Assembly (NCBI GenBank): GCA_020723105.1
Contig: DYJL01000026.1
Span: 1 to 42,814 of the forward strand
Reading direction: 5' to 3'
Source: Nitrospira japonica
GTDB lineage: Bacteria; Nitrospirota; Thermodesulfovibrionia; UBA6902
DNA length: 42,814 bases
How positions within the stretch are numbered: the stretch's first letter is position 1; every line of letters begins with the position of its first letter. The translations under genes and the position numbers were made by a program. A model generated the notes under the pieces. That model worked only from the letters and a program-made list of their open reading frames with translations, did no database searches and was not told the DNA's origin. Of the stretch, positions 2,804 to 23,024 are shown one piece after another.

Positions 2804-3178
2804 TCACTGCGGGTAGTTTATTTCACCAACCACGGCAGATGCGCCGGAAATCCGCGTGAACCGGATGGCCGTAACCGGGCTGTATAGCGTGTTCGTCTGG
2901 GGCGCACTCACCGCGCTTGCTGTGCCGATAACCTGCCAGTTCGCAGACGATGGAGCAAGAGCGGCTGCGGGCGTTGTTGAGAACTCCGCCGTTCCAGTTA
3001 CCCCGGATTCAGGGTAAATGGATACTGTCATCGGAAAGTGCTTGTTTGAAACGTCAATTACCTGCGCAGATGTTGTGGCGACTACGGACTGATAGCCGAC
3101 AAGTAGCGCAGCAAAAGCCGTGATAGACAGCATCAGTATGGCGACACCAAAAACTCCGAGAGTGAATGCCTTTTTCAT
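2804..3178 (-). CDS. Exported or membrane-anchored small protein
   Basis: A 124-residue protein beginning MKKAFTLGVFGVAILMLS, a long hydrophobic N-terminal segment (residues 4-28) that reads as a signal anchor or signal peptide. The rest is beta-rich, Ser/Thr/Ala-rich and probably a small sandwich domain (residues 45-124). I prefer the ATG at 3178, which has GGGG 5 bases upstream, over the one at 3181, which is too close. It follows the tail-fibre assembly gene. Function unknown; one of three proteins with export-type N termini in the late block. Confidence 0.65.
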   Translation of the reverse strand: MKKAFTLGVFGVAILMLSITAFAALLVGYQSVVATTSAQVIDVSNKHFPMTVSIYPESGVTGTAEFSTTPAAALAPSSANWQVIGTASAVSAPQTNTLYSPVTAIRFTRISGASAVVGEINYPQ

Positions 3179-3188
3179 CATATCCCCT

Positions 3189-3863
3189 TTACCAATTGAT
3201 TGAATCAAGAGCCTTCAGGCTCTTTGCGTTCGCCACAAATATAGATAGTTGCCGCATTTTAGCAGAACAATTTTCTTTGTGCGTCACGAAGTCGGCAAGA
3301 ACCCGGCGAACCTGCACTCCGCTATGCGCCTTCACAACCCATCCATCGGCAGAATCAACGCACCATACCTGCCTGCTCCATAACGGAGAATTTTCAGGGG
3401 CCATGCTTTCCGTTGCTACGGCCATCAAGTTCGCCTGATCTATGATGCCGCTCGCATACAAATGTGTAGGGCCAAGCGCATACGATTCAAACCCGCCAAT
3501 GATCGCGGCTGCGCAATCTTCATTCAGCAATGACAACTTTTCGGCCTTTGCGATGTTCAACACAACCTTCGCCGGGATCTTGCTTGCCACGTTCGCGGGG
3601 AGCGCACCAATATCGCTGATCTGAACTGCATCCCCGGTGGTTGTGTTGAACATCGCAGACCCACGGAAATCGCTTTTCAATCCCCAAGCATCAAGGGCTT
3701 TGTCGAACACTGCCACTTCATTTGCGCCCGGAGTCGGCGGAGCCTTGATCGTTGAGTATTCTGGGAACAAATACTTCCCCGGCTCCATCGGGCTACGTTG
3801 CGCATTTTCTTCCCCAAGGAATTCTCCCGTGACAGGATCGAACAGGTAGCAGAGTTTTTTCAT
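3189..3863 (-). CDS. Tail fibre assembly-like protein
   Basis: A 224-residue protein immediately downstream of the collar-domain fibre gene, the usual place of a fibre chaperone. The N-terminal 40 residues (KKLCYLFDPVTGEFLGEENA) resemble the start of tfa/DUF4376-type proteins, in which a short fibre-tip-interacting region is followed by a variable domain. The C-terminal half (about 125-224) is compact, with Trp residues. The ATG at 3863 has AAGGGCG upstream and starts after the fibre stop. The function (helping fibres trimerise or attach) is inferred mainly from position. Confidence 0.6.
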   Translation of the reverse strand: MKKLCYLFDPVTGEFLGEENAQRSPMEPGKYLFPEYSTIKAPPTPGANEVAVFDKALDAWGLKSDFRGSAMFNTTTGDAVQISDIGALPANVASKIPAKVVLNIAKAEKLSLLNEDCAAAIIGGFESYALGPTHLYASGIIDQANLMAVATESMAPENSPLWSRQVWCVDSADGWVVKAHSGVQVRRVLADFVTHKENCSAKMRQLSIFVANAKSLKALDSINW

Positions 3864-3877
3864 TTTTAGCGCCCTTG

Positions 3878-5134
3878 TCAGTATTTGATGCAAAGCATGA
3901 ACCCAACGCCAGCAGGCAGGTTTGCGGCTCCGCCCGTTGCGTTATTTGTGGCCGTGGTGTTTTGGTTCGTTGCTGCTGTGTTTTGGTTTGTGGCTGTTGC
4001 GTTTGCTGTATTTGAGCCATACCCGGCAGTTGTTTGATAGCCCGGAGATGTTGCTGCCGCATAAGGATAGCCAGCAGTATTCCCTGCTAGTTGAGTAAAG
4101 CCATTTGCGTGAGCATGAGCATTCTGCGTGTGCGAGTGTGCATCCTGGGTGTGCGTATGCGCGTTTTGAGTGTGATTGTGACTTATTACTGCGCCTGCGG
4201 TATTTACACCAATAACGCCAAGGCCGGAAGCCTGAAGCATTGCGTACCCTGCCGGGACGGAAGGAAGTCCAAACGTGGTAGATCCGTCACCCGCCCCCCA
4301 TTGCGTACCAATCGCCGCAAATAGGGCTGCGTATGCAGTGCGCGAAATGTTTGTCAGGGAAGTAGGAAGTTGCAAGTATCCGTTTGGCGCTGTTGCGCCA
4401 GCCCATGCGATAACAGTCCCCGGAAGAACTCTCTCACGGGGAGGATTGATAAGCTCCCATGTTGGCGTTCCGGTTGCATGGTATGTGAAAATGCAAACGC
4501 CTATGATGTCGCCGGGAGCAACTGGAACTATTAGGCCGTTCACGCTCTTTACAATCGTTCTGGCCGTTTGCAGCGATCCGTTAAGAGTCGGCGCGAAAGT
4601 TGGGGTTGTCGTAGTGTTCGGGGTTGTCGTGTCAATCGTCAGCCGAGTTCCATCCTGCAATACTGGATAGATCACGTTCGGATAATCGGCAAGGATCGCG
4701 TCAGGCGTTCCCGTTACGTCAGCATAAGGTTCAACGTATTTTGCAATCTGAGCAGCGCGGAAAATTACCCAATTTGCGGGATCAAGCGAAGGATCTGTGT
4801 ACCCAACTGGCATATCGTTCAGGGCAACATAGAACTCAGTATCCCCTGTAACAGAATCGGAGAGAGAGACAATTCCGCCTTTCGGAGTATCAACCAAAGA
4901 TGCGCCGAATCCATCAGGATTAAAGGGCAACATCAAGCCCAATTGCTGCATTACCCACAAGAGAGAGGTTGATGCCTTGTGCAGATAGTTTTGTTGCTCT
5001 GCCGCCACGTTGTCCACGTTTGGAATGAATCCACTTGCGATTTGAGCGGGGGAGGGCGCTACAGAATTCGTTCCGCCCGCATCAAAAGGCGCTGCAAGGG
5101 CTGGTGCGTTGTATGTCAATGCTGAAGCTGTCAT
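3878..5134 (-). CDS. Tail fibre protein with phage tail-collar domain and His-rich tip
   Basis: A 418-residue receptor-binding-type protein. Residues about 240-300 hold a tail-collar domain (PGTVIAWAGATAPNGYLQL, then a GAGDGSTTFGLP-type motif). This is followed by a His-rich repeat (HNHTQNAHTHTQDAHSHTQN), which in other fibres coordinates metal ions along the trimer axis. Next comes an Asn/Thr/Ala-rich low-complexity repeat (about 375-400), then a short closing strand ending in CIKY. It acts at the distal end of the tail. The start overlaps the end of the DUF2612 gene (ATGA), consistent with baseplate-to-fibre order. Confidence 0.9.
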   Translation of the reverse strand: MTASALTYNAPALAAPFDAGGTNSVAPSPAQIASGFIPNVDNVAAEQQNYLHKASTSLLWVMQQLGLMLPFNPDGFGASLVDTPKGGIVSLSDSVTGDTEFYVALNDMPVGYTDPSLDPANWVIFRAAQIAKYVEPYADVTGTPDAILADYPNVIYPVLQDGTRLTIDTTTPNTTTTPTFAPTLNGSLQTARTIVKSVNGLIVPVAPGDIIGVCIFTYHATGTPTWELINPPRERVLPGTVIAWAGATAPNGYLQLPTSLTNISRTAYAALFAAIGTQWGAGDGSTTFGLPSVPAGYAMLQASGLGVIGVNTAGAVISHNHTQNAHTHTQDAHSHTQNAHAHANGFTQLAGNTAGYPYAAATSPGYQTTAGYGSNTANATATNQNTAATNQNTTATNNATGGAANLPAGVGFMLCIKY

Positions 5135-5721
5135 GCTGCCCTCGCTGTGATGTTGTATTGATAAGGCGTATCAAGAACGCCTGAATTTATGTACTGAACT
5201 AAAAGCTCAACGCTTGCCGCGTCTGCCGGGTAATCAACTACAATCTCAATCTCATTTGCCGCCCCGATTATAACGCTGATCTCGCTTGTTTCCCCGAAGT
5301 CGGGGGCAGTTCCATTGATGCCGAGGATAAAACGCTTCACGCGCCGTTTTAGCCAGTTGATGTTTACATACACACCATCCCCGGCGTAGTGCTTCCAAGT
5401 CAGAATTCTCTTGTAAACATCGTCCGTTGCTAACACGGAAAGAATGCTTCCAGATCCATACGTTTCAGTATTGTAGTCGAATGCGTTGTATATGGCCCCC
5501 GAAGGGAATCCAGTAACAGGACGACGAAGCCCGTATATGCCAGCGCCCACCCAATCAAGAAGATTCCCTGAAAGCGCGGTGTATATCGGCAAATTGGCCG
5601 TATTCGCCCAATCAACATATCCCTGCGCAAGCGAGTTGAATGCGGCAACGAACGCCCGCAAATCAAGATCATCTTGATATTGCTGATACAGGTATTGGCC
5701 TATAACGTCCACTCTCATCAT
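5131..5721 (-). CDS. Baseplate/tail protein, DUF2612-like
   Basis: A 196-residue protein between the J-like baseplate wedge and the tail fibre, the place of P2 gpI-type proteins. It has many aromatic residues and the pattern LLDWVGAGIYGLRRP near residues 54-68, typical of DUF2612 tail proteins as I remember the family. It likely connects the baseplate wedge to the fibre. The start is coupled to the upstream stop (TAATGATG); either of two adjacent ATGs may serve. Confidence 0.75.
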   Translation of the reverse strand: MMRVDVIGQYLYQQYQDDLDLRAFVAAFNSLAQGYVDWANTANLPIYTALSGNLLDWVGAGIYGLRRPVTGFPSGAIYNAFDYNTETYGSGSILSVLATDDVYKRILTWKHYAGDGVYVNINWLKRRVKRFILGINGTAPDFGETSEISVIIGAANEIEIVVDYPADAASVELLVQYINSGVLDTPYQYNITARAA

Positions 5722-7340
5722 TACACCCTTGTTACAACAACGCTTTCAATCGCTAGATAAAAATAGCCTTCCGTATCGCCTTGAATCAATGATGTTCCGG
5801 GAGTGACTGCCGTTGTCACTCCGTCAATCGTCACGGTAAACGCGAGCGAAGAAATCAGGTATGAAGGAACAATGCTCTCGACGCTTTGCAAGAAGATCTG
5901 ATGAAGCGTGTATTCATTTATTGCAGCGCCAACCGGGATCGAATTGACGTAATCCGCGAGCGCCTGCGTCACTGCATCGCTGATTGCAGTATTGGCCGTA
6001 AAATTTGGGGAGATAGTTGACCAATCAACCGAGATCCCTACCGTTTGCTGAACAGGAACAACGAAAAGAATTGAATATGTATCCGGGTAGTCAATGATGG
6101 AAACGATCCGGTTTCTGGTCGATGCGCTCCCTGTCATAGACTCGCTCAAAACTGTCTGCGCGTAGTTCAGTTGATATGTTCCCGTTCCGCCAGATCCAGT
6201 TAGAAGTGCGGTAATCACGGTTGGGTTTGCAATGCCAATGCCGGAAACAATATCGCCAACTTGGATTGTCCCGGCTGATACTGCGGTAATGGTAAGGGTA
6301 GTCCCGGAGATCTCTCCGGTTCCGGCCCAAGTGTTCGACGTTGCGCTTGAACCCGCCAAATCACCGATGTCGAAAAGCGCCTTGAAGATAGCTCCGGCAA
6401 CTTCGTAAGGATCTCCGCCGCCAACAATAATTTTCCCTGCCCCGCTTACCGATACAAGCCGGGCTTGCACTCCGGGAATGTTCCTCAACATCGCCTTCAG
6501 CATTGAAAGTGTTCCCGTTCCCGGAAGCAATTGAGAATCAAGAACCCGTGCGCGATATAGAGCATCCGTTTCAGCTTCAGCCGCAATCAGACCGGGATTT
6601 TGGTTAGTGCAGTAAACGGCGTATCCGGTAGGAACGGAAGTCACAACCGAAGTGATAGTTCCTGCCGGAATAGCCCAATCTCCAAACTCTCTTGCAACAA
6701 CATAAAGGATTGCCGTCCCGTGGATCGCTCCGGTGATTGTCGTGCTTGCTACAGTCTGGGAATTGTTTACCGAGTACGTTCCCGTTCCGCCCGTCCCGGT
6801 TAAGTACCCGGTAATCACCGTCCCGGCTGTTACGCCAGCGCCAGAAACGGGATCTCCAATCAGTATCTCCCCGGATGCGACTGCGGAAACTGTCAGCGTC
6901 GTTGTGGAAATTGAACCCGTGTACTCCGATTGAACCGGGTTGGCTAAAACACCGCTTTCCTGCGCAACATACTGATGAAGGCCGTCGCTCACCGTAAAGC
7001 CCTTCTGAATTGCATACCCGGCAATTCCGGTGAAGGTAACGTATGCACTTGAATTTGATCTCTCGCCCTGCGCGATTCCTCGCATCTCACCTATCAAGCC
7101 AAGCAAATACGGGTTCGCCGCGTTCGGAGTGAATGAGTTCAGTAGATCAATTGCGGCCTGATCCATTTGCGCAAGTGCAGCAACGGAAGTGCTTGCAATA
7201 TCCTCAATCAGAGATCCCGGAAGGTTCCCGGTGTATCCGGGCCGCATCGCTGTTACGGCTTCAATGAGCGCGTTCCGCAACAGTGCCGGAGGGGTTGGTT
7301 GCGCCCCCGCTGCTGTCACATTTATGTTTGCTGCCGTCAT
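5721..7340 (-). CDS. Baseplate J-like wedge protein
   Basis: A 539-residue protein. The N terminus ([20 protein letters not shown]) and the region YRARVLDSQ (about 262-270) match baseplate J/gp47-type proteins, which form the wedge arms of contractile-tail baseplates. Two Gly/Thr-rich beta modules interrupt it, at residues about 140-204 and 339-405, each with a GTGGTGTY core; such modules are not part of a minimal J protein. It lies after the gp25-like gene and before DUF2612, the expected order. Confidence 0.9.
6126..6326 (-). repeat. Beta-rich inserted module, copy B
   Basis: Encodes residues about 339-405 of the J-like protein, with the pattern G-x-I-S-G-T-T-L-T-(I/V) ... GSGGTGTY ... QTV. 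It is homologous to copy A in the same protein and to a copy in the tail sheath. Likely a surface-exposed domain gained by module exchange. Confidence 0.8.
6729..6923 (-). repeat. Beta-rich inserted module, copy A
   Basis: Encodes residues about 140-204 of the J-like protein ([20 protein letters not shown] at its start, [19 protein letters not shown] at its end). Clearly homologous to copies at 6126-6326 and 15050-15250. Confidence 0.85.
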
Positions 7341-7384
7341 CTTCTCCCCCGCTCACTTTCGTTGCGACTTCATTGATTATATGT

Positions 7385-7768
7385 CTATATCGGCACATTG
7401 GCGGAGATTGAAACTCCGCTGTTCGTCACCACATCAACGCCGTAAACGGGTACGGGCGGATTCTCTTCAGTCTCCGCCACTCTGCGATTGATAGAAAGGC
7501 TTGCGAAGTATGCTGAAAACTTGGACTGCATCTGAGCAACGTAAAAATCCGGGAACACCTGAGTTGCGATTGACTGTTGAGCGGGAACCCCGTAATTGGC
7601 AAAGAACGGAGATTCGCCCGGCGAGAGAAGAAGCGATTGAATGAGCGTAGTGAGCCAAACGGGATCATCATGCCCGTTTGCGTCGGTTGCTACCTCAACC
7701 CAAACACCGTTGCTTCGTCCGAAGGTTCTAATTTTAATTCTCCCGGTAAAATTGGCCGTGCAATTCAG
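7385..7768 (-). CDS. Baseplate wedge protein, gp25/W-like, with apparent CTG start
   Basis: Translation from 7768 gives 127 residues beginning LNCTANFTGRIKIRTFGRSN (first Leu read as Met) and containing DDPVWLTTLIQSLLLSPGES and FFANYGVPAQQS. This layout and position (after spike, before J) fit gp25-like baseplate wedge proteins. The frame has no ATG, GTG or TTG after the in-frame TGA of the upstream gene at 7790. The CTG at 7766-7768 has AAGGAAAG at a good distance upstream, so a CTG start is the best reading; ATT codons further in are poorer. Alternatives are a sequence error or readthrough of the upstream TGA. Confidence 0.75.
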   Translation of the reverse strand: MNCTANFTGRIKIRTFGRSNGVWVEVATDANGHDDPVWLTTLIQSLLLSPGESPFFANYGVPAQQSIATQVFPDFYVAQMQSKFSAYFASLSINRRVAETEENPPVPVYGVDVVTNSGVSISANVPI

Positions 7769-7789
7769 AGGCTGCTTTCCTTGCGCGCA

Positions 7790-8371
7790 TCACTCTCTAT
7801 CCTTTACCGGGTTCAATTCTACAGCATCAAGCGGAGTCAAAACTGTAGGAGTTGTGAGTCCGGCCCCTATCGTCACAAGAAGCGTGTTCAATCGCGTCAC
7901 CAATAGGTTCCATGATGCGAACTGATCCTCTATCTTCAATTGGTGTACGTCATCCCTCAGAAGGACATCATCAAGCCCCGTTAGCGTCAATTCCCTTTCG
8001 TTCACCGCCTTCCATTTTTTGTTTCCAAGCGGCAGGAACATCAGAGCCGAAAGGTTTGGAGGAGAATCAAGGCTTGGAGCGCCGTCAGCCTCCCCGCTTA
8101 TTTCGGAAACACTTGTATCGCACGGGATCAAAATTCCTTTGTCACCTTTTTGAATCGGGATGCGCACGTACTCAGATCCGACAACAGGAACCTCAATTTC
8201 AGGCAAGTTGTAATCGCTCAGAACTTCAAACTTCACCACCACGCGGGAATTCATAACCTTCACCACGGATGCCGGGAGAGAGCGAGAAAGCAGGCTTATA
8301 GCAGATTCCGCGCCGCTCTTTGCCGTTGCGCCCAATGACACTTGAAAGGGGATCTTCTGCGTGTTGTTCAT
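7790..8371 (-). CDS. Baseplate spike protein, Gp138/gpV-like
   Basis: A 193-residue protein. Residues about 30-120 look like the OB-fold of phage spike proteins (ASVVKVMNSRVVVKFEVLSD; RIPIQKGDKGILIPCDTSVS), as in Gp138 N-terminal domains. The rest is polar, with a region LSALMFLPLGNKKW that recurs in this family. It would sit at the tip of the tail tube and pierce the outer membrane. No lysozyme domain is attached. The start overlaps the end of the hub gene. Confidence 0.8.
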   Translation of the reverse strand: MNNTQKIPFQVSLGATAKSGAESAISLLSRSLPASVVKVMNSRVVVKFEVLSDYNLPEIEVPVVGSEYVRIPIQKGDKGILIPCDTSVSEISGEADGAPSLDSPPNLSALMFLPLGNKKWKAVNERELTLTGLDDVLLRDDVHQLKIEDQFASWNLLVTRLNTLLVTIGAGLTTPTVLTPLDAVELNPVKDRE

Positions 8372-9372
8372 TGTGCTGCCGCCGTTGTATTCAGAATTGA
8401 ATCAATCACCGTCACCCAACTGTTCGCGTCTTGCTGCCTGAAGTTCCCGATGTGCCGAACCGACTTCACAAGCGCAGTGCCGGAAAATGCAATTTCTTCC
8501 TTCACTTCACCAAGCAACTTTGCCCTGTTCAGTATGTTCGATTTTGGCATTGTCACTGTGTCCATTACCTGAATATCCGATCTCATAACCGTTTTCAATT
8601 GAACAACCAAAAGCTCAAGCCAAGTAGGTTGTCCAATGAGATCGTTGAAGTTTATTGAGATTGGATTCTTCTGTTTCGTCCCATCATCAAACTTGTATCC
8701 GTCGCCTGTTTTGCAAGTTTGAATCCCAAGGTAATCAGATGCCCCGGAAAATCTCTTGCTCTGCACCTTCAGCACTTGCGCAAATTCGCTCATTCCGAGA
8801 GCTTGGAAAATAACCGGTTCCGTCGCCACAACTCCGCCATCAGTTGAAACGCTTGCGGAGATGCCTGCCGCCTGCATGGATGCTGCAATTGCATCGCTGA
8901 AAGATTGCCCTTTTTTGCAGTTGAAGATGATCGGATTGCGCTTCTTTGGCGCTTCCTGCGGCCTTGGGGTGAGTTGCGTCGTGATTATCAAATCAAGAGA
9001 TTGCTCCGTTCCTTGCCAATTTCCGAACGCTTGAAAAATAGATCCTTGGAAGATTATCCCGTTTCTATTCGGTGATTGATTCACTTGCTCATTCGCAAGA
9101 GGCAAGCCCTCTTTCATTCCTGCGAGAATCGTGATGTTTTTGGAGTTGAGCAACGCCGCTTGGTTGAGCGTTGCCAGATCCACGCCCCAGATCTTCAGAA
9201 ACGCATTTCCTGCCGGGATGTCATACGTCACAACAGGAATATCGAACTCGATATTCAACGCGCCCTTGTTCACTCCGCCTGCGGAGTTGTGACTTGAAAA
9301 CGACATAGGAACGCCGCCTACCTGAACGACGTTCCCGGATGTGTCTGTTATCTGTATTTCGTAGAATCTCAT
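8368..9372 (-). CDS. Baseplate hub protein (gp27/gpD-like)
   Basis: A 334-residue protein. The N terminus (MRFYEIQITDTSGNVV) and a GQSFSDAIAASMQAAGI-type segment (about 155-171) are typical of hub proteins in small myoviruses, which connect the tail tube to the spike. It lies between the plug/structural genes and the spike gene. Identification rests on order and on overall resemblance. Confidence 0.7.
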   Translation of the reverse strand: MRFYEIQITDTSGNVVQVGGVPMSFSSHNSAGGVNKGALNIEFDIPVVTYDIPAGNAFLKIWGVDLATLNQAALLNSKNITILAGMKEGLPLANEQVNQSPNRNGIIFQGSIFQAFGNWQGTEQSLDLIITTQLTPRPQEAPKKRNPIIFNCKKGQSFSDAIAASMQAAGISASVSTDGGVVATEPVIFQALGMSEFAQVLKVQSKRFSGASDYLGIQTCKTGDGYKFDDGTKQKNPISINFNDLIGQPTWLELLVVQLKTVMRSDIQVMDTVTMPKSNILNRAKLLGEVKEEIAFSGTALVKSVRHIGNFRQQDANSWVTVIDSILNTTAAAQ

Positions 9373-9384
9373 TTTCGCATTCTT

Positions 9385-10203
9385 TTATCGCAGTTCCGCC
9401 CACGCTCCCCAAGTGATATTCGTCCCGGTTACATAGTACACAGAACCGGGCGGCACAATGGCTGACAGCGTAGCCCATGCCCCTGTTGCGGCATATCCGC
9501 TTGATGCAACAACACCATCAACCACCAAATCCGCCGGAGAATCAACCCCGGCCCTATAAACTGTGGCGTTTACCTGTATGGGCTTGCCCGTTGTGTTTGT
9601 GTAGTTTGTTGCAATAGCGCGAGTGCCGGAAGTGAACGCCTGCCAAGATTGCCCGTAATGCCCGGATGCAAGGACTATATCTTCAGGGTAGACGAAAACC
9701 ACTCCGTTTGCCTTGAAAGCCTGCACAACCTCGCCAGCCGTGCAGGTGTAATCTATGCCGCCGATTATTTTTGCCGTTGTCGCATTGTAAGTAATTGGCC
9801 ACGCACCAGCCGCCACCATAGTAATGTGCTGGCCCTCGTTCATAGTGAAGGCGGAGGTTGCTGTTGTTCCTGTGATCGCTACCGTGTTCCCTGTCGCCGC
9901 CGTCAAATCAATCGTGGCGGCAGATGCCACATCAGAGCCAACAGCCAAGCTAAATAGCCCGGAAACTGAAAAGCTATCCGCCTCAAGCGCCGAAAATGCC
10001 CCGGTTGACTTCGTTACGGCCCCGATAGGCGTGTTGTTTATGGTTGAGCCAGTGATTGTGCCTGACGTAATGCAAGGGGCCGAAATTGCGTTATTTAGCG
10101 CCGAAGCTGTAAGCACCGTGTTCGGCGTGAACGGGTTGCATACGGCAAATGAAATTGCCGGAAGCAACAACAGCGAAGCCAGAATGAGTTTAAATTTTTT
10201 CAC
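9385..10203 (-). CDS. Fibre-like protein with Sec signal peptide
   Basis: A 272-residue protein beginning at a GTG with AAAGGAG upstream. Residues 1-20 (MKKFKLILASLLLLPAISFA) are a textbook signal peptide with a cleavage site after SFA. The body is Thr/Ser/Ala/Gly-rich and beta-like, with a GTITGSTINNTPIGAVTKST segment common in phage fibre or spike-like proteins and a compact C-terminal domain (about 180-272). An exported fibre-like protein in the middle of the baseplate operon is odd, since virion proteins assemble in the cytoplasm. It may be a cargo gene acting at the cell surface, or the signal may be retained for a membrane-associated assembly step. Confidence 0.75.
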   Translation of the reverse strand: MKKFKLILASLLLLPAISFAVCNPFTPNTVLTASALNNAISAPCITSGTITGSTINNTPIGAVTKSTGAFSALEADSFSVSGLFSLAVGSDVASAATIDLTAATGNTVAITGTTATSAFTMNEGQHITMVAAGAWPITYNATTAKIIGGIDYTCTAGEVVQAFKANGVVFVYPEDIVLASGHYGQSWQAFTSGTRAIATNYTNTTGKPIQVNATVYRAGVDSPADLVVDGVVASSGYAATGAWATLSAIVPPGSVYYVTGTNITWGAWAELR

Positions 10204-10215
10204 CTTATTTCTCCT

Positions 10216-10578
10216 TTACGATAGAACAGAAACATCCAGAACAAACGGGTTCAGCGAGGCATCAAGCATATTGTCGACAAAGTCATTGTAAGGCTGATTT
10301 TGCGCCTTTACGTCAGATATTTCAAACTGACTTGAGGCTTCGCGGTAAACAACCGAGCTTGTGAACAGGCTTCCAAAAATGGGAATGTCGTACCCGGATG
10401 GACTGCCGATCATCGGGCGCGATGCAACCATTAACCCTTGAGTATCATACGCGGTCAAATAGTACCGCTCTGCGGCAAAATTCCACGACACAAAAAGCGT
10501 ATGCTGCACTCCGTCCAATATCGCTTGGAATTGGAATTGCGTCTCAGTCGGCGGCGTGAATGGGATTATAGTTGCCAC
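10216..10578 (-). CDS. Baseplate plug-like protein
   Basis: A 120-residue protein with the pattern FQAILDGVQHTLFVSWNFAA and RYYLTAYDTQGLMVASRPMI, characteristic of the small phage proteins now called baseplate plug, as I recall. It probably fills the hub-tube junction. It overlaps the upstream tail gene by 13 bases and precedes the exported fibre-like gene. Confidence 0.7.
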   Translation of the reverse strand: MATIIPFTPPTETQFQFQAILDGVQHTLFVSWNFAAERYYLTAYDTQGLMVASRPMIGSPSGYDIPIFGSLFTSSVVYREASSQFEISDVKAQNQPYNDFVDNMLDASLNPFVLDVSVLS

Positions 10579-11174
10579 GGCGGAACCTTGTTTGTAATCC
10601 GCGCCGTTTGCAAATTCTCAGCAAACGTCGCTTCGGCAGTGGAAATCAACGGCTGAATAAAGTCAAGCTGCCAATCTGTTTGCTGATGCTTGCTTTCCCC
10701 GGTTGTGATGTCCGTCATCCCTGTCAAAATACAACCTTCATAAACGAACGAAGGCGTGACAACAATATAAGTTCCGCCCCTGAAGTTGTGATTGTCCAAT
10801 GCGGCTTTCAGTGCCGTCGCAGTCATTGTGCGCGTCACCATTCCGCCCCGGAGCCTTGGAGTGCAATTCATTCGCATGGATATATTCAGCGGCTGCGCAA
10901 TGATCGCGTTTGCCGCCGTTTTTTGGTTTGCGAACGGGTACATCCCGATTTGATTGTTGTGCAGCTTTGCGCCCGGCATAGGCCAGAACGTAGCCCAAAA
11001 ATCATCAAGGTTTGTTGGTATGCTCCCCGACAAGATGCTTCCCGTCATATCCGCCGCCTGCGTGATCGCCACAAGCGGAAGCACTTTCCCCGGAACGAAC
11101 GAAGCCAAACCATCAACCAAGAAGATCGGTGATTTTTCGTATGCCAGCTTATAGGCCGCGCTTCCGATGTTCAT
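10566..11174 (-). CDS. Tail/baseplate structural protein downstream of tape measure
   Basis: A 202-residue protein, coupled to the tape-measure stop (ATGA). Proteins of this size just after the tape measure often form the upper baseplate or initiator complex. Visible features are a RMNCTPRLRGGMVTRTMTAT segment and DWQLDFIQPLIS near the C terminus. No catalytic motif. Structural role inferred from position. Confidence 0.65.
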   Translation of the reverse strand: MNIGSAAYKLAYEKSPIFLVDGLASFVPGKVLPLVAITQAADMTGSILSGSIPTNLDDFWATFWPMPGAKLHNNQIGMYPFANQKTAANAIIAQPLNISMRMNCTPRLRGGMVTRTMTATALKAALDNHNFRGGTYIVVTPSFVYEGCILTGMTDITTGESKHQQTDWQLDFIQPLISTAEATFAENLQTARITNKVPPWQL

Positions 11175-12532
11175 TTTCCGATCCCCGTTCCGGTTGATAC
11201 GGCGAGCGCCTGATTGACCGTTGAAGATCCTGCGGGAGTCTCAAGATGATGCGTGAAGTTGAACTGGAACGCACGGCCAAACATGGCATCACCGCCCTGA
11301 TTGCCTGCGCGCCTTGCCCGTTCGATTGGCGTATCTCGCACCAACCCGGCTGTATCTTCCTTGCTCAACTGGCTCCAACCTATTTCCTTTGGCTCACTAT
11401 CACCGAACAGCTTATTCAGCAGTTCCGCCGTTGAACTGATCGCCTTGCCAATCTGCCTGATTTCCTCAACAAAGCTCTTGAAGTCTGCGGAGAATTGATC
11501 GCTGATGAGGTAATTTGCGCCCTTTTGAAGCATCTCGCCAGATCCGGCAATAACGCCCTTCACCATCGGGCTTTTCATCACTACACCAATCGCCTTCGTC
11601 AGCCCCTCGGAGAAAGTAGAGAGGGCGGGCTTCAGCGGAACCAGAGCCTCCGCAAATATGTTTTCGATCTTCACGCCTGCGGCCTTGAGATCTCGCACAA
11701 AATCAGCCCAAGCCTGTTGCGTTGACTTCGCCAGATCCAAAGAGCGTTGTTCGCTCTCCATTTGCGTCTTGAGCGCATCCAGATTGGTTGCCATCAACTC
11801 GGAAATAACCCCGTAGTCTTGCATCCCTTCAGGCGCAAACAAGGGCGCGGAAAGTGCGCGGGATTCAGCCGGGAGCGATTCAACCTTTTTCTTCAGGGCA
11901 TCAAGGAACGGAGCGATCAATTGCGCGGGAGATTTCGTTCTCCATTGACTATCTTCCATTCCTACCTTTTTGAACATCACGCCGCCGCTTGCCTTCTCGC
12001 GCTGCATGGTTTCAAGAAGCGATTGAACGCCTCCCTCGCCTAGTAGTTGCCCGTAAACATTTTTAGCGGCCTGAACGCCTCCGTATGAGCTTCCTGATCG
12101 CCTTGCTGATGACTGCCCAGACGAAACGCTTTCCGCCATCCGGGTTATGCCAAAAAGACCGCCTGCGCCCAACAATCCAGAAAATAAGCCCATGACAGCG
12201 CCCCAACCCAAAAGCGACTTTGTGGCGTTCTTGATGTTCCCGGCAATCTTGAATGTGTGTTTTGCGAGCGATGATGCAACGCGATCCGAAGCCTTGATTG
12301 AAAGCGTCAGTTTTGCGGCAAATGTGTTTGCCTTCTTGAATGCACCTGCTTGATTGGAGATCTTGGCAACGAACTTTGCCGCCGCACCTTGGGCCTTGTT
12401 GATGGATTTTCCAATCGAACCCCATTGGCCCGGCAGATTGCGAAGTTTTGCCCGGTGATCCTCAAATTGCTTATTGAAGGATTTCCACGCGCCATCTTGT
12501 ATCTCAATAGAAATTATTGACTTTGCGGCCAT
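11171..12532 (-). CDS. Tape measure protein (short)
   Basis: A 453-residue protein. The N-terminal 150 residues are basic and helical, Ala/Lys-rich (SINKAQGAAAKFVAKISNQA), followed by a hydrophobic glycine-rich segment (LLGWGAVMGLFSGLLGAGGL, about 107-126), long helices, and a polar tail. This is the usual tape-measure composition; it sets tail length and enters the membrane during ejection. Few hundred residues imply a short tail tube. It follows the frameshifted chaperone, as in most tailed phages. Its ribosome site (GAGGAAA) lies inside the upstream GIY-YIG gene, whose last 19 bases overlap it. Confidence 0.85.
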   Translation of the reverse strand: MAAKSIISIEIQDGAWKSFNKQFEDHRAKLRNLPGQWGSIGKSINKAQGAAAKFVAKISNQAGAFKKANTFAAKLTLSIKASDRVASSLAKHTFKIAGNIKNATKSLLGWGAVMGLFSGLLGAGGLFGITRMAESVSSGQSSARRSGSSYGGVQAAKNVYGQLLGEGGVQSLLETMQREKASGGVMFKKVGMEDSQWRTKSPAQLIAPFLDALKKKVESLPAESRALSAPLFAPEGMQDYGVISELMATNLDALKTQMESEQRSLDLAKSTQQAWADFVRDLKAAGVKIENIFAEALVPLKPALSTFSEGLTKAIGVVMKSPMVKGVIAGSGEMLQKGANYLISDQFSADFKSFVEEIRQIGKAISSTAELLNKLFGDSEPKEIGWSQLSKEDTAGLVRDTPIERARRAGNQGGDAMFGRAFQFNFTHHLETPAGSSTVNQALAVSTGTGIGK

Positions 12533-13230
12533 GATTTCCTCTTGTTTATTGCGTCTCGCCTAGCGGCCAGCGTTTTTTTCTTCCATTCTGGGTCAGACCA
12601 CAAAGCCAGCAGCTTCTCTTTTTTCTTTCTCTTCGATTCCTCGTTATTTCTTGCCGCATCCAGTCTCTCTAAAAGAGATTTCCTCTTATCTGGACTGGAA
12701 AGGGTTTTAGCTAAACTTCTTCTTCTTTTTTCTTTTGTCTCATCTGATTGCTTTACCCCAAGGCAGTATTTGTTCCCTTTGTGGGAATCTGACATTTTCT
12801 TTCTTGTTTCGTCATTAGCTGACATGCCAATATGGTACGCAGATAATTTTAATCTAAATCCTTCTGAGTGCTTTCTTCCTTTATTAAACGACTTCCCTCT
12901 TGCCTTTTCTGATAGCTTATTTCTTGTCTCGGTAGTCACTAGAACTCCGCTAGAGCCTTCCCCGCCTCGTGTCTTATTGCAAAGCAATATCCCCTCTTTT
13001 GAAAGCTGCAAGATTTGTTGCACCTCGTCTGCAAATGCTTGCTCCTCTGAATTGCAGTGGAATACGTATATTCCTATATTATCTTTGCCATATTTTTTAA
13101 TAGTGTTTATATGATGCGTATTTCTTTTTGTTTCATATAAATTGTACGCCCTATTCCCCGATCCCTTCCCTACATAAAAAGGCGTACCGTCCGGCTTGCA
13201 ATGAATATATGTATAAAATTGCTTCTTCAT
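12514..13230 (-). CDS. GIY-YIG homing endonuclease with NUMOD3-type repeats
   Basis: A 238-residue protein. The GIY-YIG variant is at the N terminus (FYTYIHCKPDGTPFYVGKGS), followed by conserved NRAY and a downstream Asn/Glu region. NUMOD3-type DNA-binding motifs follow at about 109-160 (SEKARGKSFNKGRKHSEGFR; NDETRKKMSDSHKGNKYCLG), then a Lys/Arg-rich C terminus. It cuts DNA to promote its own spread. It sits between the tail chaperone and tape measure genes, is AT-richer than its neighbours and overlaps the tape measure start, all signs of later insertion. Confidence 0.9.
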   Translation of the reverse strand: MKKQFYTYIHCKPDGTPFYVGKGSGNRAYNLYETKRNTHHINTIKKYGKDNIGIYVFHCNSEEQAFADEVQQILQLSKEGILLCNKTRGGEGSSGVLVTTETRNKLSEKARGKSFNKGRKHSEGFRLKLSAYHIGMSANDETRKKMSDSHKGNKYCLGVKQSDETKEKRRRSLAKTLSSPDKRKSLLERLDAARNNEESKRKKKEKLLALWSDPEWKKKTLAARRDAINKRKSWPQSQ

Positions 13231-13242
13231 TGCGCTAGTAAA

Positions 13243-13931
13243 TCAGAAAACTCCCGTGAACATCCTCAACAAGTGGCGCTGCCTGTATTCGTGCGCCGAG
13301 GAACTGAATTTTACATCAGCTTGCCCCATAACAGCGGGAAAGCCTTCGTTTGAGGCCCAATCTAGTATGCAGGCGACGGCGCTTTCCCTGTTCCCGGCAA
13401 AGTCCCTGTCTCTGTCGATGTCGGCAATGAAGCGCAGAACTCCGAACAAGTGGATGATGTAGTTTGCGTCTGCCAAGAGTCGTTCAGAATTGTCAGCAGA
13501 TCCTCCTTTACCGCCTTCCGCGTCATGCCGCAAATTAAGGTAAAAAAAACGATTCTCTGCTTTGCCTCCTGCCAATCCTGCTCATCAAGCAACTCGCGGC
13601 TCAGTGCCACGTTCACCGGGATCTGCTCCCATCCATTGCCGCCGAGGATTAAAACGGTTGTCAGGCGTTCGATCTCATCCATCAATCCGGCCTTCACCCC
13701 TTCCTTGCCGTCCCATTTCCCCATGTCGCGGGAAATCTCTTCCAGAGTCATTGCCGCGATAGCCGCCCCCGTCATTTCCATTCCGGCCTGCAAAAGCCGA
13801 GTGAAGGCCGCGCACATCACAAAATGGTAACGCTGAAAAGTCTCGCGCAAAATAGGTGTGTGATGAAAGAAAACATCCCCGTGATCTGCTTCCACGGGGA
13901 CGACCAAGTTCAGGTTTTTATCTATCTTCAT
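13243..13931 (-). CDS. Tail assembly chaperone, -1 frameshift product (G-T type)
   Basis: The same start as the short chaperone is used, but translation slips -1 on a run of eight T (13542-13549) and continues in the frame that ends at 13243. The product would be about 229 residues: 130 from the first frame and 99 from the second (QRIVFF then YLNLRHDAEGGKG). Two overlapping frames just before the tape measure are a hallmark of tail chaperones, in which the extended form recruits tape measure and tail tube subunits. The -1 frame is open across the whole overlap (13575-13243). Confidence 0.85.
13362..13931 (-). CDS. Tail assembly chaperone, unshifted product (G type)
   Basis: A 189-residue protein from the same ATG. 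Residues 1-130 are shared with the frameshift product; the last 59 are Ser/Thr/Cys-rich and of low complexity, as expected for an out-of-frame tail translated only when ribosomes do not slip. The ATG follows the tail-tube stop by two bases; no strong ribosome site is visible, so coupling is likely. Confidence 0.8.
   Translation of the reverse strand: MKIDKNLNLVVPVEADHGDVFFHHTPILRETFQRYHFVMCAAFTRLLQAGMEMTGAAIAAMTLEEISRDMGKWDGKEGVKAGLMDEIERLTTVLILGGNGWEQIPVNVALSRELLDEQDWQEAKQRIVFFTLICGMTRKAVKEDLLTILNDSWQTQTTSSTCSEFCASLPTSTETGTLPGTGKAPSPAY
13542..13548 (-). promoter_or_regulatory. Slippery heptamer T TTT TTT for -1 frameshift
   Basis: On the minus strand the zero-frame codons read GTT TTT TTT ACC. 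The heptamer T-TTT-TTT allows both tRNAs to re-pair after a -1 slip, and the next codon becomes TAC in the frame that continues for 99 residues. No pseudoknot was tested. Confidence 0.8.
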
Positions 13932-13933
13932 GG

Positions 13934-14371
13934 TTATACGTTATACAGATCGCCGTTGACTTGATACGCGCCTTGGAAGTGAATCACAACGCCAGCCTCT
14001 TCGCCGTTCATCTTGATCGGATCAACGCTCTTGATCGAAGCGTTCGTGATGTTGTAATCCGAGAATCCCGAAGCATCGGAGCGGATTACGCAATCGCCCA
14101 GAGTCGAGAGCTTTTCGATCCGCTTCTTGAATCGCTCGCCAAGTCCGTTTGTGCGCAGAACATGGGCGGAGAATTCAACGATCTGGTACGGCTCCGGCGA
14201 TGTAACCAGCCCGGTTGCAGACGGGATTGCATGAGTAACATCACCCTGCGGGGTAATGGTAATCATTTCCTTTCCCAGAAACGCCGGGGTGATATTCAGA
14301 TCCGGGAGATCCACGAAGCTGATGGAACCGCGCAAGCGGTTGATTGTTCCTTGATTTACTGGCGTTGCCAT
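13934..14371 (-). CDS. Tail tube protein
   Basis: A 145-residue protein directly downstream of the sheath gene, the invariable place of the tube gene in contractile tails. It is beta-rich, with KEMITITPQGDVTHAIPSAT and GVVIHFQGAYQVNGD near the C terminus; it resembles DUF3277-type proteins that accompany DUF3383 sheaths. It polymerises as hexamer rings inside the sheath. GGGGG lies just upstream of the ATG. Confidence 0.8.
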   Translation of the reverse strand: MATPVNQGTINRLRGSISFVDLPDLNITPAFLGKEMITITPQGDVTHAIPSATGLVTSPEPYQIVEFSAHVLRTNGLGERFKKRIEKLSTLGDCVIRSDASGFSDYNITNASIKSVDPIKMNGEEAGVVIHFQGAYQVNGDLYNV

Positions 14372-14383
14372 GCTTGCCCCCTA

Positions 14384-16357
14384 TTAACCTGTTACAAGAT
14401 CAGAAACATTCAGGGCAAAATTGATTGCCGTGAACCCGCGAGCCGGAACCGCAACAAGCGAAAGGCCGTTGTATTCGCCCGCCGCATACGCACTTGGATT
14501 GGCTTCCGTGTATGTGGCGAAGTCAATTGCGTTCACGATTGGCGTGTTGGCGTTGCTCAGAAGCATCCCAAAATTCACGCAACGGTTCGCTGTAGCCTGC
14601 GCACGATTCTGAAGGCGGTTGATGCCGCGTTGATCGTAATACAGAGGATTGATCGCGGTATTGCTGCCATTGATGACCTCGTTCGCCAGATCAATGTGCA
14701 GGGCCGTTTGAACGTAGTCCACGGCATACCAGTAGCTAAAGTCCCGACCATCGCCCGCAACGCCCCATTTCAGCGTTTTGACGTTAGGCAATCCGCCTTC
14801 CGCTCCGGTGTCTGTATAGTTCACATAAGCCGCCTTCAGATTGGTTGCATCCAGAGGGGTGAGCGGGTATGCGACAGATCCGAAAATATAACGGAACGCG
14901 AACGGAGCCAGCTTGTTCGTTTCGCTTGGATTCATCCCCACGCACAGCGCGAACATATCTGCGGCAGGCGATGTCAGGACAGAATCCAAAGGCGCTTTGA
15001 TGCGCATTACCGCCGCTTTCAGCCCTTTGTATTGATCGTAGTTGTTTGTCGAACCCATTGCCGTTGAAGCCGCCGTTTGGAGGTTGTTCACGGTATATGT
15101 GCCGACCCCGCCAGTCCCGGTAAGCAGGCCAGTAACGCGAGTGTTCGCGGTAACGCCAGTACCTTCGATCAGTTGGCCGATTGCAATATGACCTGAAGCG
15201 ATGTCGGTGACTGTGAGTGTAGTTCCGCCGATTGACCCGGTAAAGCTCGCATCTCCCTGAACATGGAAGAAACAATAAAAGCGGGAAGTCAGGCCGGAAT
15301 TCAGGCTCAAGAACGTCAGAAACGTAGGCTCATCGGCCCACGCATCGGGAACCAGAGCCGCGTAGTACGTTGCCGGGTTTGCCAGCAAGAACGCATTCAG
15401 ATCCGCAACGCCGCCAGCCGCCGAGTTTGTGCCGCCGCCAGTCAGGACAGCGCCGGAAACAGTGATTGCGGAGCTTGTCGTTGCCAGAGTATAGGAATTG
15501 CCAGCAACGCCGGGGAGCTTGCTTGTGACCGTGACAACAGCGCCGGAAAGGGCGTAAGACAGCAAGACAAGGTTGACATCCAGAGAGGCCGACAAGAACG
15601 CCAGCAAGCTCGCTGCCGTCAGTTCTTTGGTTGCGCCAACCAGAACTTGATTCCCTGTCGGGCTTGCTGCAACGAATGTGATTGCAGTTCCTTGAATCGT
15701 CAGAGTGTCGGGAGCAACGCCGCCCGTCAGGTTTGCGCCTGAAACAGAAATGTTCACGCCCGTTGCTGCCAGCGTGTAAGCATCTCCGCCAGTGCCGTAA
15801 ATGCGAGCCGTCGCAGTTGTTACCGCAAGGATCGTGTTGTACGTCATCAGCGCAATGTTCACATCGGATGATGCTGCCAAGAATGCTTGCAGGTTTGCGG
15901 CAGTCAGTTCCTTCGTTGCCGCGATCAGGACTTGATTACCAACCGGGCTTGCGTCAACAAAGGTGATCGCCGTTCCTTGGATTGTCAGAGTGTCGCCGTT
16001 CGCGGGTAGCGTATCCAGCGTGATCGTTCCACTCGACTGAACGCCCGGACTAGGGTTTGTGTCCAGCGTGACAGTGCCGCTTGCGCGAGTGCCAGCAGTT
16101 CCAAGTTCAAGGACGCGGATCGCCACGTTCGCTTGATTGTTCGCTGAATAGGTTGTGTATTTTGCTTGTAGTTCGGTTGCAGCATCGCCAGAGCCAAGAA
16201 TGGCAGTGAAATCCGCTTGAGATGCAATCAGGGCGCTTTCGCCTGCACTGAGAGATGATCCGCCTTGAGATACGATCAGCCCGGTACGCTGCAAAGCGGA
16301 AGGCGTTGCGGCGTTTGTTTGTGAAACTAGGATGTTTACAATATCGTTTGCAGACAT
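14384..16357 (-). CDS. Contractile tail sheath protein, DUF3383-like, with inserted modules
   Basis: A 657-residue protein. The N terminus ([20 protein letters not shown]) and C terminus ([20 protein letters not shown]) are conserved parts of DUF3383 sheath proteins. Between them are insertions: two tandem copies of an about 92-residue module (residues 121-213 and 217-308, each starting [13 protein letters not shown]) and one copy (370-436) of the GTGG-x-GTY beta module also found twice in the J-like protein. These probably decorate the sheath exterior. GGAGG precedes the ATG. The protein is longer than the roughly 400-500 residues usual for such sheaths, which the insertions account for. Confidence 0.85.
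15050..15250 (-). repeat. Beta-rich inserted module, copy C (in sheath)
   Basis: Encodes residues about 370-436 of the sheath ([20 protein letters not shown] ... [19 protein letters not shown]). Homologous to copies A and B in the J-like baseplate protein. Confidence 0.85.
15434..15709 (-). repeat. Sheath tandem module, second copy
   Basis: Encodes residues about 217-308 ([20 protein letters not shown] to AVLTGG). More than half of the residues match the first copy and the DNA is also similar, so it arose by tandem duplication. Confidence 0.85.
15719..15997 (-). repeat. Sheath tandem module, first copy
   Basis: Encodes residues about 121-213 ([20 protein letters not shown] to ANLTGG). Tandem partner of 15434-15709. 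Confidence 0.85.
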
Positions 16358-16386
16358 TTTGCCGCCTCCATTTTAGGAACCTTTGC

Positions 16387-16406
16387 GGGAGGGCTTTCGC
16401 CCTCCC
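16387..16406 (-). other. GC-rich hairpin with GAAA tetraloop upstream of sheath gene
   Basis: On the minus strand GGGAGGGC-GAAA-GCCCTCCC forms a perfect 8-bp stem with a GNRA loop, between the exported protein gene and the sheath gene. No T tract follows, so it is not a standard terminator. It may protect or process the 5' end of the abundant sheath mRNA. A short frame (16336-16434) runs through it but has no ribosome site. Confidence 0.6.
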
Positions 16407-16420
16407 CCTCCGGCTTGCCA

Positions 16421-16438
16421 CTGCCTCCCGGCATGAGC
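16421..16438. repeat. 18-bp dispersed repeat, copy 1
   Basis: CTGCCTCCCGGCATGAGC occurs here and again at 23025-23042, where on the minus strand it spans the first possible ATG and the ribosome site of the Nudix-DUF2213 gene. Here it lies in the leader of the sheath gene. Confidence 0.8.
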
Positions 16439-16468
16439 TAACGCTGCGGGCGAACCCGCATTACTTGT

Positions 16469-16900
16469 TTACTGATACGAAGTGGAAACTACCTGAGAAG
16501 CGCCGGGGATAACAAGGATTCCGGTTGAAACAGGAACATTCAACTCGTAGATGCCTACGGTAGCAGGCATGACGGCGATCAGGTTTGCGGCTGCGCCCGT
16601 GCCTGTCGTTGCGGCATCATAGATTGCGCCTGCGGCCCCGGCAGTTGTGACCATGAAGCGAACGATTCGCCCGACACCTTCTTTCACTACGGTTGCGGCA
16701 GTGATGTTCAGCGAAGTGGCAGTGCCGTTGCTGTTCACTTTCAAATCTGATTGAGCATCCAGCTTCAGTGAAGTTCCGTACCCGGAGGTATCTGTTGCCA
16801 CATTGGAGCGGATCGGATTTTGACCTGCGTAGGCTGGCGATGCAATGGCGAACGCCAATGCTGCAACGGAGAACAGGCGAGACAAAGAGTGCTTTTTCAT
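16469..16900 (-). CDS. Capsid-decoration-like protein with Sec signal peptide
   Basis: A 143-residue protein. Residues 1-25 (MKKHSLSRLFSVAALAFAIA, then SPAYA) are a clear signal peptide with an AYA cleavage site. The mature part (VGRIVRFMVTTAGAAGAIYD, then a Val/Pro-rich end) resembles small beta-rich phage proteins of head or decoration type. The ATG at 16900 has GAGGT 5 bases upstream. Lying between a neck gene and the sheath, it is placed like a virion protein but appears to be exported. Function uncertain. Confidence 0.75.
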   Translation of the reverse strand: MKKHSLSRLFSVAALAFAIASPAYAGQNPIRSNVATDTSGYGTSLKLDAQSDLKVNSNGTATSLNITAATVVKEGVGRIVRFMVTTAGAAGAIYDAATTGTGAAANLIAVMPATVGIYELNVPVSTGILVIPGASQVVSTSYQ

Positions 16901-16980: not shown

Positions 16981-17886
16981 CTACAGCGAAACAGTGATTC
17001 CCGCGCTCTCAATCAATTTCCTGCCAACCGCAAGGGATCGGCTCTGATAGTAGTTGATTTCAAACTCAATTGTTTTTTTCTGAGCAAGAATCCCCAACTC
17101 CGATTGCCCGCGCTTCTCATCTTGGATCGAAGGTGAATTCTGTATTCCAAATGAATCGCTTGAAAGCGAGTAATCAAGGACGTAATCAAGGAAGTCAAGC
17201 GCCTCATTGTTCCGTAGTCCCATCATAATGATTTTCACCTTCTCTGTCATAAGCTGAAGGTGAGTTGAATCGTTCGCTATCTCCGGGGCGGATTGCACCG
17301 CCTTTGTCTCAGTGATGTCAATAGCAGCGTATGGCGGGCGCAAGTTTGTTTCCGTGAGGTACGCCGGGAACATCGGCATGAACCGATTGAGCGCCAACCA
17401 GATAGGAAGCGAGTTTGTTGCGATCAACTCCCCAAGATCCAATGGATCTGCCGGGGAATCTATGATCTGGGAGTACATCGCCGGGTAAATGGCATCCCCG
17501 CGATAATGGTATGTGTCGGCCTGCTGATACTTCCTGCCCTGCGCAGTGAAGGCAAAGCGAATGTCATCAATGCTTCCGATGTACGCCACCGCATCAGATA
17601 TTGCGTTGAAACTTTCGATCTGCTCTTGCGTTGTGAACACAACCCGGTTCAGGCCAATGATCTCATCAACTCTTTGCTGTTGATCCGTGTCGTAATGCAG
17701 AGAGCCGCGAACCCTGAATTCAGGGGCCATGAGATCCTTAACCCAAAAAACGTATCCATCCAAGGGCAGGACGGCGCGTGTGTACTTGAAGAACACAATC
17801 TCTTGTTCCGCAGAGATCGTTCGTATCCCGGCATCTAGGCTTGATTTAAGCGGAGCCGCATTCCCTGTTTCGTCAACTTTCGCCAT
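16981..17886 (-). CDS. Neck/tail-completion region protein
   Basis: A 301-residue protein between small neck genes and the sheath region. It is mixed alpha/beta with PPYAAIDITETKAVQ in the middle and a C terminus of IEFEINYYQSRSLAVG type. In related small myoviruses a protein of this size here is a structural protein at the head-tail junction; I do not recognise a named family. Its start overlaps the upstream stop by 14 bases. Confidence 0.65.
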   Translation of the reverse strand: MAKVDETGNAAPLKSSLDAGIRTISAEQEIVFFKYTRAVLPLDGYVFWVKDLMAPEFRVRGSLHYDTDQQQRVDEIIGLNRVVFTTQEQIESFNAISDAVAYIGSIDDIRFAFTAQGRKYQQADTYHYRGDAIYPAMYSQIIDSPADPLDLGELIATNSLPIWLALNRFMPMFPAYLTETNLRPPYAAIDITETKAVQSAPEIANDSTHLQLMTEKVKIIMMGLRNNEALDFLDYVLDYSLSSDSFGIQNSPSIQDEKRGQSELGILAQKKTIEFEINYYQSRSLAVGRKLIESAGITVSL

Positions 17887-18289: not shown

Positions 18290-18723
18290 CAGGACATTCC
18301 CCAGACCGTCCCGATACGCTGCGCAATGCTCAAATAAGCGCGGCCCCACGGGTTTTTGATGTACTGAAGATCCGCCATCGTCAAATTCTTGAAGAAGTCA
18401 GGGTTTGTCATTGATTGGCTTGTTCCTTCATCAGATGCCGAGGCAATCACTCCGGGAACAAGTCCGTTGATGTTGTATAGCTTTCGCTGATCCGCGAAAA
18501 ATGTTTGTCCTGCCTGATCGTTGGCAAACTCAATCAAGTTGCTCACGCCAAGATTGTAAACGGCCTGATCGTGCATCACGGATGAAATGGCTTCCAATCC
18601 TTGATATACGATCTCCGTTGCAATGCTCAAGGCCGTATCAATATCCGTTGAGGCATCAGGAAGGTAGGTTGTCGTGATACCTGCCGCCCGGATGAATGCA
18701 ATGAATCCTGATTTATCGGCCAT
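18289..18723 (-). CDS. Head completion/adaptor-like protein
   Basis: A 144-residue protein located between capsid genes and the gp10-like gene, where the head-tail adaptor is expected. Largely helical, with SIATEIVYQGLEAISSVMHD (about 33-52) and YNLGVSNLIEFANDQAGQTF. This resembles DUF4054/adaptor-type proteins in general layout. Function from gene order. Confidence 0.6.
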   Translation of the reverse strand: MADKSGFIAFIRAAGITTTYLPDASTDIDTALSIATEIVYQGLEAISSVMHDQAVYNLGVSNLIEFANDQAGQTFFADQRKLYNINGLVPGVIASASDEGTSQSMTNPDFFKNLTMADLQYIKNPWGRAYLSIAQRIGTVWGMS

Positions 18724-18733
18724 GTTCTACCCC

Positions 18734-19261: not shown

Positions 19262-19284
19262 TTTGTATCTCCCGTGCAGGAATT

Positions 19285-19314
19285 GAAAAAGGCCGCAAGA
19301 TTGCAGCGGCCTTT
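19285..19314 (-). terminator. Rho-independent terminator after capsid gene
   Basis: A 9-bp perfect stem (AAAGGCCGC / GCGGCCTTT, 9-base loop) between 19288 and 19314, followed on the minus strand by TTTTTC. It sits just downstream of the major capsid gene, suggesting partial termination to raise capsid transcript over downstream tail genes. Confidence 0.8.
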
Positions 19315-19336
19315 ATCGTATCACCAAAACTTATTT

Positions 19337-23020: not shown

Positions 23021-23024
23021 GCTG

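Follow-up and report, generated by a model that had tools for sequence, protein, structure and literature searches.

The window analysed here, one entire contig of 42,814 bp (DYJL01000026.1) from the 94-contig Nitrospira japonica assembly GCA_020723105.1, carries a set of tailed-phage genes on its minus strand, and among them are three genes whose products (P1, P2, and P3) are very probably exported from the cytoplasm, as judged from their sequences and those of their relatives. The explanation that we tentatively favour is that all three are accessory proteins of virion type that have been re-routed to the cell envelope, where they would modulate adsorption. The three genes and their parts, all on the minus strand, are as follows.

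2804-3178, minus strand: P1, predicted signal peptide and a beta-strand-rich body of about 100 amino acids, flanked by the tail-fibre assembly gene and the lysis cassette
3110-3178, minus strand: P1 predicted signal peptide, residues 1-23 (n-, h-, and c-regions and an AXA site, AFA/A)
9385-10203, minus strand: P2, predicted signal peptide, fibre-type modules, and a tail-fibre tip (phrog_18834, 2.4e-13; phrog_18794; fibre relatives)
10144-10203, minus strand: P2 predicted signal peptide, residues 1-20 (SFA/VC, no lipobox; GTG start with AAAGGAG)
9388-9657, minus strand: P2 C-terminal fibre tip, residues 183-272 (the same domain stands at the end of phage fibres)
16469-16900, minus strand: P3, predicted signal peptide and a small beta-sandwich of a sheath-adjacent phage family (orthologues and family in the same slot)
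16826-16900, minus strand: P3 predicted signal peptide, residues 1-25 (AYA/GQNPI; homologues without a signal start MPQNPI, MPQGPI, or MPQAPL here)
16472-16732, minus strand: P3 beta-sandwich domain, residues 57-143 (AF2 block means 79-96 from residue 61 onward)

Predicted signal peptides

Signals on these three proteins had been proposed in the initial annotation, and the proposal is confirmed by their open reading frames (ORFs), their ribosome sites, and the organization of their N termini: in each, charged residues at the start are followed by a hydrophobic core and then by an AXA-type cleavage site, the features required by the simple n/h/c-region and AXA rule used as the signal test. Each start has a plausible ribosome site, with Shine-Dalgarno-like sequences aaaGGGGatatgATG (P1), aaaGGAGaaataagGTG (P2), and tGAGGtagccATG (P3); P2 begins with GTG, and the P1 reading frame holds an additional TTG farther upstream. 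The predicted signals are MKKAFTLGVFGVAILMLSITAFA for P1 (cleavage before ALLVG), MKKFKLILASLLLLPAISFA for P2 (cleavage before VCNPF), and MKKHSLSRLFSVAALAFAIASPAYA for P3 (cleavage before GQNPI). None has a lipobox, with Cys at +1, and a lipoprotein reading of P2 (FAVC) is ruled out by the Val at -1.

Among the 32 genes of the virion-lysis half, the rule is passed only by P1, P2, P3, and a lysis-cassette gene (1072-1617); across all six-frame ORFs it is passed by 12 of 245, P1 and P2 being two of these. When residues 2-45 are shuffled, 25%, 32%, and 8% of trials still pass (P1, P2, and P3, respectively), so the rule is no proof and the argument is carried by comparison with relatives. The signal is kept in all three members of the P3 clade and in all three P1 orthologues. 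This conservation across diverged orthologues is the main evidence for the signals, and it supports the view that they are real and under selection.

Relatives with and without signals

P3 is the decisive case among the three proteins. A survey of its slot, anchored on the gene upstream (16981-17886), covered 97 loci (80 viral and 17 from bacterial genomes), and in 83 of them a P3-family ORF directly follows the homologue of the anchor gene and precedes the tail sheath. A signal was found in the survey at L175 only (under the display threshold, but plain by eye and passing the base rule); outside it, signals are present in the window and in a sister phage, L009. The signal-bearing orthologues lie at 5043-5471 in L009 and at 3860-4285 in L175, the phage of which is also represented by L275. 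That of L009 (40% identity) has its own signal, written in other letters and cleaved at the same place, and within the clade the signal is retained despite protein identity of about 40%. In a tree of the upstream protein the window, L009, and L175 form one clade (SH-aLRT 100) with one change needed; since the carriers form a single clade, the P3 signal is taken to be derived, the alternative being many losses elsewhere.

The comparison with signal-less homologues that had been proposed earlier could thus be made, and for P3 these homologues occupy the same slot of the virion operon. Many of them start MPQNPI, MPQGPI, or MPQAPL, and these starts align with the predicted mature end of P3; mature P3 retains the full extent of the signal-less relatives. 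Such starts are seen in the more distant family members that fill this slot in several IMG/VR contigs and in Shewanella phage QDWS (gp37); further members, also signal-less, are found after a gp10-like gene in podovirus-like contigs. Some phages, such as Chronis, PdC23, and Rac-SA53, have no gene in the slot, which indicates that P3 is accessory and dispensable. The P3 model matches a phage protein in BFVD (E 1.9e-9), and a search of PDB folds gave nothing under E 0.001, its structural matches being middling and tied. A P3 profile run against GTDB contigs recovered no relative, whereas the neighbour-gene scan did recover family members.

Apparent signals in the P3-family members of L182, L183, L192, and L203 were rejected, the start lying within the domain. 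A cytosolic form of P3 made from a dual start was likewise rejected, since at the mature end no start codon in frame is preceded by a convincing ribosome site. In L182, L183, and L198 (at 4509-5207) the P3-family gene is duplicated in tandem in the sheath-adjacent slot.

The last 90 residues of P2 correspond to the tip in fibres of Acinetobacter phage Cato, of the Pseudomonas phages PG1, HHBS14_1, and PspYZU08, of Rhodoferax phage P26218, and of others (phrog matches and tblastn). At 80 further viral loci with this tip (63 distinct N termini) a convincing signal was found in none, and ordinary fibre N termini stand in its place. One tip relative that passes the signal rule (L159) was rejected because its start had been placed too far upstream of what is a normal fibre N terminus, and two other signal-bearing candidates (L103 and L165) proved weak or truncated. 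The P2 signal is followed by a Cys-bounded stretch (C22 and C44). Searches of annotated phages with the N-terminal part of P2 gave no match, and no N-terminal virion-attachment domain was recognized, such absence of a match being weak evidence. The P2 slot contains a signal-less tailspike in L009 and is empty in L275. Since P3-family members outside the window clade carry no signal in the sheath-adjacent slot, and the P2 tip elsewhere belongs to signal-less fibres, P2 and P3 would be virion-type modules to which signal peptides have been added.

All three genes had been described as embedded in the virion operon; this holds for P2 and P3 but not for P1, which lies where the fibre genes give way to the lysis cassette. 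Both P1 orthologues have a signal (L275, 15559-15924, 50% identity; L059, a different myophage, 5884-6261, 61% in the body) and both are found between fibre and lysis genes; Ala24, beside the predicted cleavage site, is invariant in the three sequences. The AF2 model of P1 consists of a helix followed by beta strands (pLDDT 66). It is too weak for interpretation, its BFVD matches being unnamed phage proteins, and P1 had no match among annotated phages.

The gene that follows P1 in L059 (6258-7652) and in L275 (15926-17290) encodes a signal-bearing phrog_1645 protein ("virion structural protein"); no signal is present in its homologues from HMO-2011, S-RIM32, S-SRM01, DSL-LC04, and ctYwJ313. 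Five Cys columns (169, 182, 197, 205, and 357), including a Cys-rich insert, are common to the two exported copies. The insert is missing from all five signal-less homologues, and any other pair in the alignment has at most one common Cys column of that kind, a pattern that is likely what disulfide gain after a move to the oxidising periplasm would produce. In L009 the P1 slot (19054-19935) is occupied by a phrog_8198 protein with a signal, four homologues of which are without one; one homologue is called a virion protein in S-SCSM1, where virion proteins were identified by mass spectrometry. The initial annotation's reading of the three proteins as surface or periplasmic effectors is strengthened in part by these comparisons, in that the signals appear real, under selection, and derived in one P3 clade, with paired cysteines added in the neighbours of P1 orthologues.

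The L009 phrog_8198 protein and the L275 phrog_1645 protein have unrelated bodies and a common mature N-terminal motif (Y..SKPIS..NP.PS) right after the signal, as if signal and linker formed a transferable module. L009 also encodes, between its fibre and lysis genes and on the other strand, a small signal-bearing protein (MFKFIFLALLSTSAFADNWTRADTY; 18602-18961, minus strand). Three other loci, met in passing and unevenly sampled, illustrate recurrence, not frequency. In L147 (4342-7471) a normal tail fibre is followed by three successive signal-bearing genes, of which the last encodes 572 amino acids with many cysteines, and L021 (5329-8986) has two adjoining signal-bearing proteins with tail-fibre family matches after the fibre gene. 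In the cultured Rhodoferax phage P26218 a signal-bearing protein, P26218_24, follows the fibre gene; the part of the phage's description that reports a SignalP run gives exactly one signal-peptide gene in the genome, identity not given.

Proposed envelope action and competing explanations

We propose that P1, P2, and P3 are accessory beta-rich proteins, expressed late (inferred from gene position), that would exit the cytoplasm via Sec and be cut by signal peptidase I. The envelope would most likely be their target, in the periplasm and, once the cell has lysed, outside it; a role as built-in parts of the virion is less likely, and envelope action seems the simplest reading of the analysis. 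Their likeliest job would be to occupy adsorption sites by binding to them, and so to limit late superinfection and the loss of progeny to receptor-bearing debris. This adsorption role is plausible though far from assured; it is preferred because the P2 tip is of receptor-binding type, because P1 is placed like T5 llp, and because Llp provides a precedent, being a periplasmic phage protein that is encoded next to the receptor-binding gene and blocks adsorption (PMC9586334). P2, a fibre tip with no recognized virion-attachment N terminus, appears to be the clearest candidate for such occupation. A literature search (open-licence papers) for exported virion-type proteins of tailed phages returned no prior description.

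Several observations weigh against this proposal. Before lysis, a soluble periplasmic fibre tip is on the wrong side of the outer membrane, and the P2 signal has a single sequence as its basis, without support from any orthologue. No signal-less relative of P1 is known, which leaves virion ancestry a mere possibility for this protein, and its structural model is weak. Mature P1 and P3 contain zero cysteines, which makes the disulfide argument indirect for both, and the lipobox of Llp and Cor is missing from P1-P3.

The main rival, and the more surprising outcome, is that the exported proteins are held in the periplasm and bind progeny virions at lysis, the particle being completed outside the cytoplasm. 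It is less probable than envelope action but a serious contender: the preserved extent of mature P3, relative to signal-less relatives in the virion operon, would fit a decoration, and so would the annotation of phrog_1645 and phrog_8198 relatives as virion proteins, with the S-SCSM1 virion proteome behind the latter. Export would, however, bring no obvious benefit to P1 and P3, in which cysteines that could be oxidised are lacking; no virion docking partner is known for P1-P3; and P2 has no recognized N terminus with which to attach. It is also conceivable, though unlikely, that tailed phages repeatedly turn accessory virion proteins into Sec-exported ones that finish or coat progeny in the periplasm or at lysis, an extracytoplasmic morphogenesis step that would provide disulfide-stabilised decorations that the cytoplasm could not make.

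We consider it quite unlikely that the three are lysis or envelope-damage factors similar to XepA, that is, exported beta-sandwich proteins acting on the membrane or cell wall late in infection. Phages are known to export beta-sandwich proteins that are absent from particles, XepA being the example (PMC6834076), and P1 adjoins the lysis cassette. The P3 model can be superimposed on XepA (Z 6.1, 84 residues, 3.1 A) and on YomS (Z 5.2), but these values are tied with unrelated chains (nucleoplasmins and a fucosidase for Z 6.1) and that for XepA is beneath a meaningful level. P2 and P3 are located among tail genes, outside the lysis cassette, no enzyme-family match was found in Pfam, and neither Llp nor XepA was homologous to P1-P3 by any test here.

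Improbable, too, is the reading in which the N termini do not serve for export in this phage, the proteins being normal virion parts of the cytoplasm whose start is hydrophobic, or in which the signal acts as an uncleaved anchor. It would account for the location of all three genes in or beside virion operons, for the long hydrophobic stretch of P1 (modelled as a helix through residue 30), and for the ease with which composition alone satisfies a crude rule (8-32% of shuffles). It does not explain why the n/h/c structure and cleavage site are retained across orthologues at 40-50% identity, why the cleavage point is the start of signal-less homologues, or why cysteines are confined to exported copies in the neighbours of P1 orthologues. 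That the genes are morons altering the surface of a surviving host (by conversion or adhesion) without aiding the lytic cycle would suit accessory genes of patchy distribution, and is very improbable with no integrase among the scanned genes and all three genes oriented in the late direction within tail and fibre blocks.

Genes in the virion operons of phages are, as a matter of routine, annotated as structural. Should signals prove to be attached repeatedly to fibre tips and decoration domains, some of this annotation would be wrong in compartment, and phages would gain a second, exported use for receptor-binding and surface modules. The same domain with and without a signal, in the same slot, offers a test set for control of late superinfection or of adsorption to debris, as well as for oxidative folding of phage proteins.

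Genome setting and comparison with known systems

The minus-strand virion operon, which is of myophage type, contains genes for terminase, portal, capsid, tail sheath, tube, tape measure, hub, a J-like baseplate protein, a collar fibre, and a fibre-assembly protein (tube and tape measure named by position). The gene order is that of Klebsiella phage Chronis, Pantoea PdC23, Yersinia 210.17, Shewanella QDWS, and Escherichia Rac-SA53, at identities of mostly 25-60%. Megablast found no near-identical phage records for the window, and no integrase was identified among the genes scanned. The contig ends (1-60 and 42755-42814) have a 45-bp direct overlap within a coding tandem repeat (GEARVYGEARV); the contig may be a circular phage genome, and the tandem repeat alone could also explain the overlap. 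The host genome encodes LptD, indicating a diderm host with an outer membrane, the assembly bin alone being the basis for assigning the contig to this host. A profile search with P1 and P3 in 230 genomes of the host's class gave the window as sole match, and P1-P3 matched none of the anti-phage defence models. The genes neighbouring P1-P3 are as follows.

14384-16357, minus strand: tail sheath (phrog_205), downstream of P3
16981-17886, minus strand: conserved gene upstream of P3 (phrog_6359), anchor of the slot survey
10216-10578, minus strand: baseplate plug-like gene upstream of P2 (weak Pam3_gp18 Pfam match under the cut-off; phrog_8737)
8368-9372, minus strand: baseplate hub downstream of P2 (phrog_196)
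3189-3863, minus strand: tail-fibre assembly gene, upstream of P1
3878-5134, minus strand: collar-type tail fibre, upstream of P1

The sheath is 657 amino acids long, compared with about 440 in relatives, and has a beta domain (phrog_38233/21413) in common with the J-like baseplate protein (5721-7340) that is also present in tail fibres. A homing-endonuclease-like gene (12514-13230) is located between the g13362 gene and the tape measure, with a similar-looking gene at the matching position in L074 (8425-9255). The product of the lysis-region gene at 1072-1617, which may be a spanin-type protein, has a membrane segment at its N terminus, and its C terminus is outer-membrane-like, with Phe as the last residue. 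At 21296-23038 a head-maturation-protease-like region is fused with a Nudix-like domain.

The tail fibres of Cato, PG1, and P26218 end in a tip homologous to that of P2 but have other, signal-less N-terminal domains, where P2 has a signal peptide and the Cys-bounded stretch. P3 has the family, the slot (phrog_6359 to sheath), and the beta-sandwich profile in common with the sheath-adjacent proteins (QDWS gp37 and about 80 IMG/VR and GTDB loci); those relatives are signal-less, and the window clade stands alone in having a signal. The phrog_1645 and phrog_8198 virion proteins of cyanophages and HMO-2011 are also signal-less, whereas signal-bearing homologues, with five extra common cysteines in the exported phrog_1645 copies, are found beside P1 (L059 and L275) or in the P1 slot (L009); neither family is in the window. 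PBSX XepA and SPbeta YomS are phage beta-sandwich proteins, as is P3, but they belong to a lysis cassette and a Gram-positive host; no sequence relation to P3 was found, and the similarity in fold is inconclusive.

T5 Llp and T1/phi80 Cor, which serve in superinfection exclusion, are small proteins that phages send to the periplasm or outer membrane, as is probably true of P1-P3. Both are lipoproteins processed by signal peptidase II, whereas P1-P3 have predicted signal peptidase I sites, and P2 and P3 differ from them in stemming from fibre or sheath-adjacent families; we know of no virion relatives of Llp or Cor. The T5 llp gene adjoins the receptor-binding gene, and P1 follows the fibre and fibre-assembly genes.

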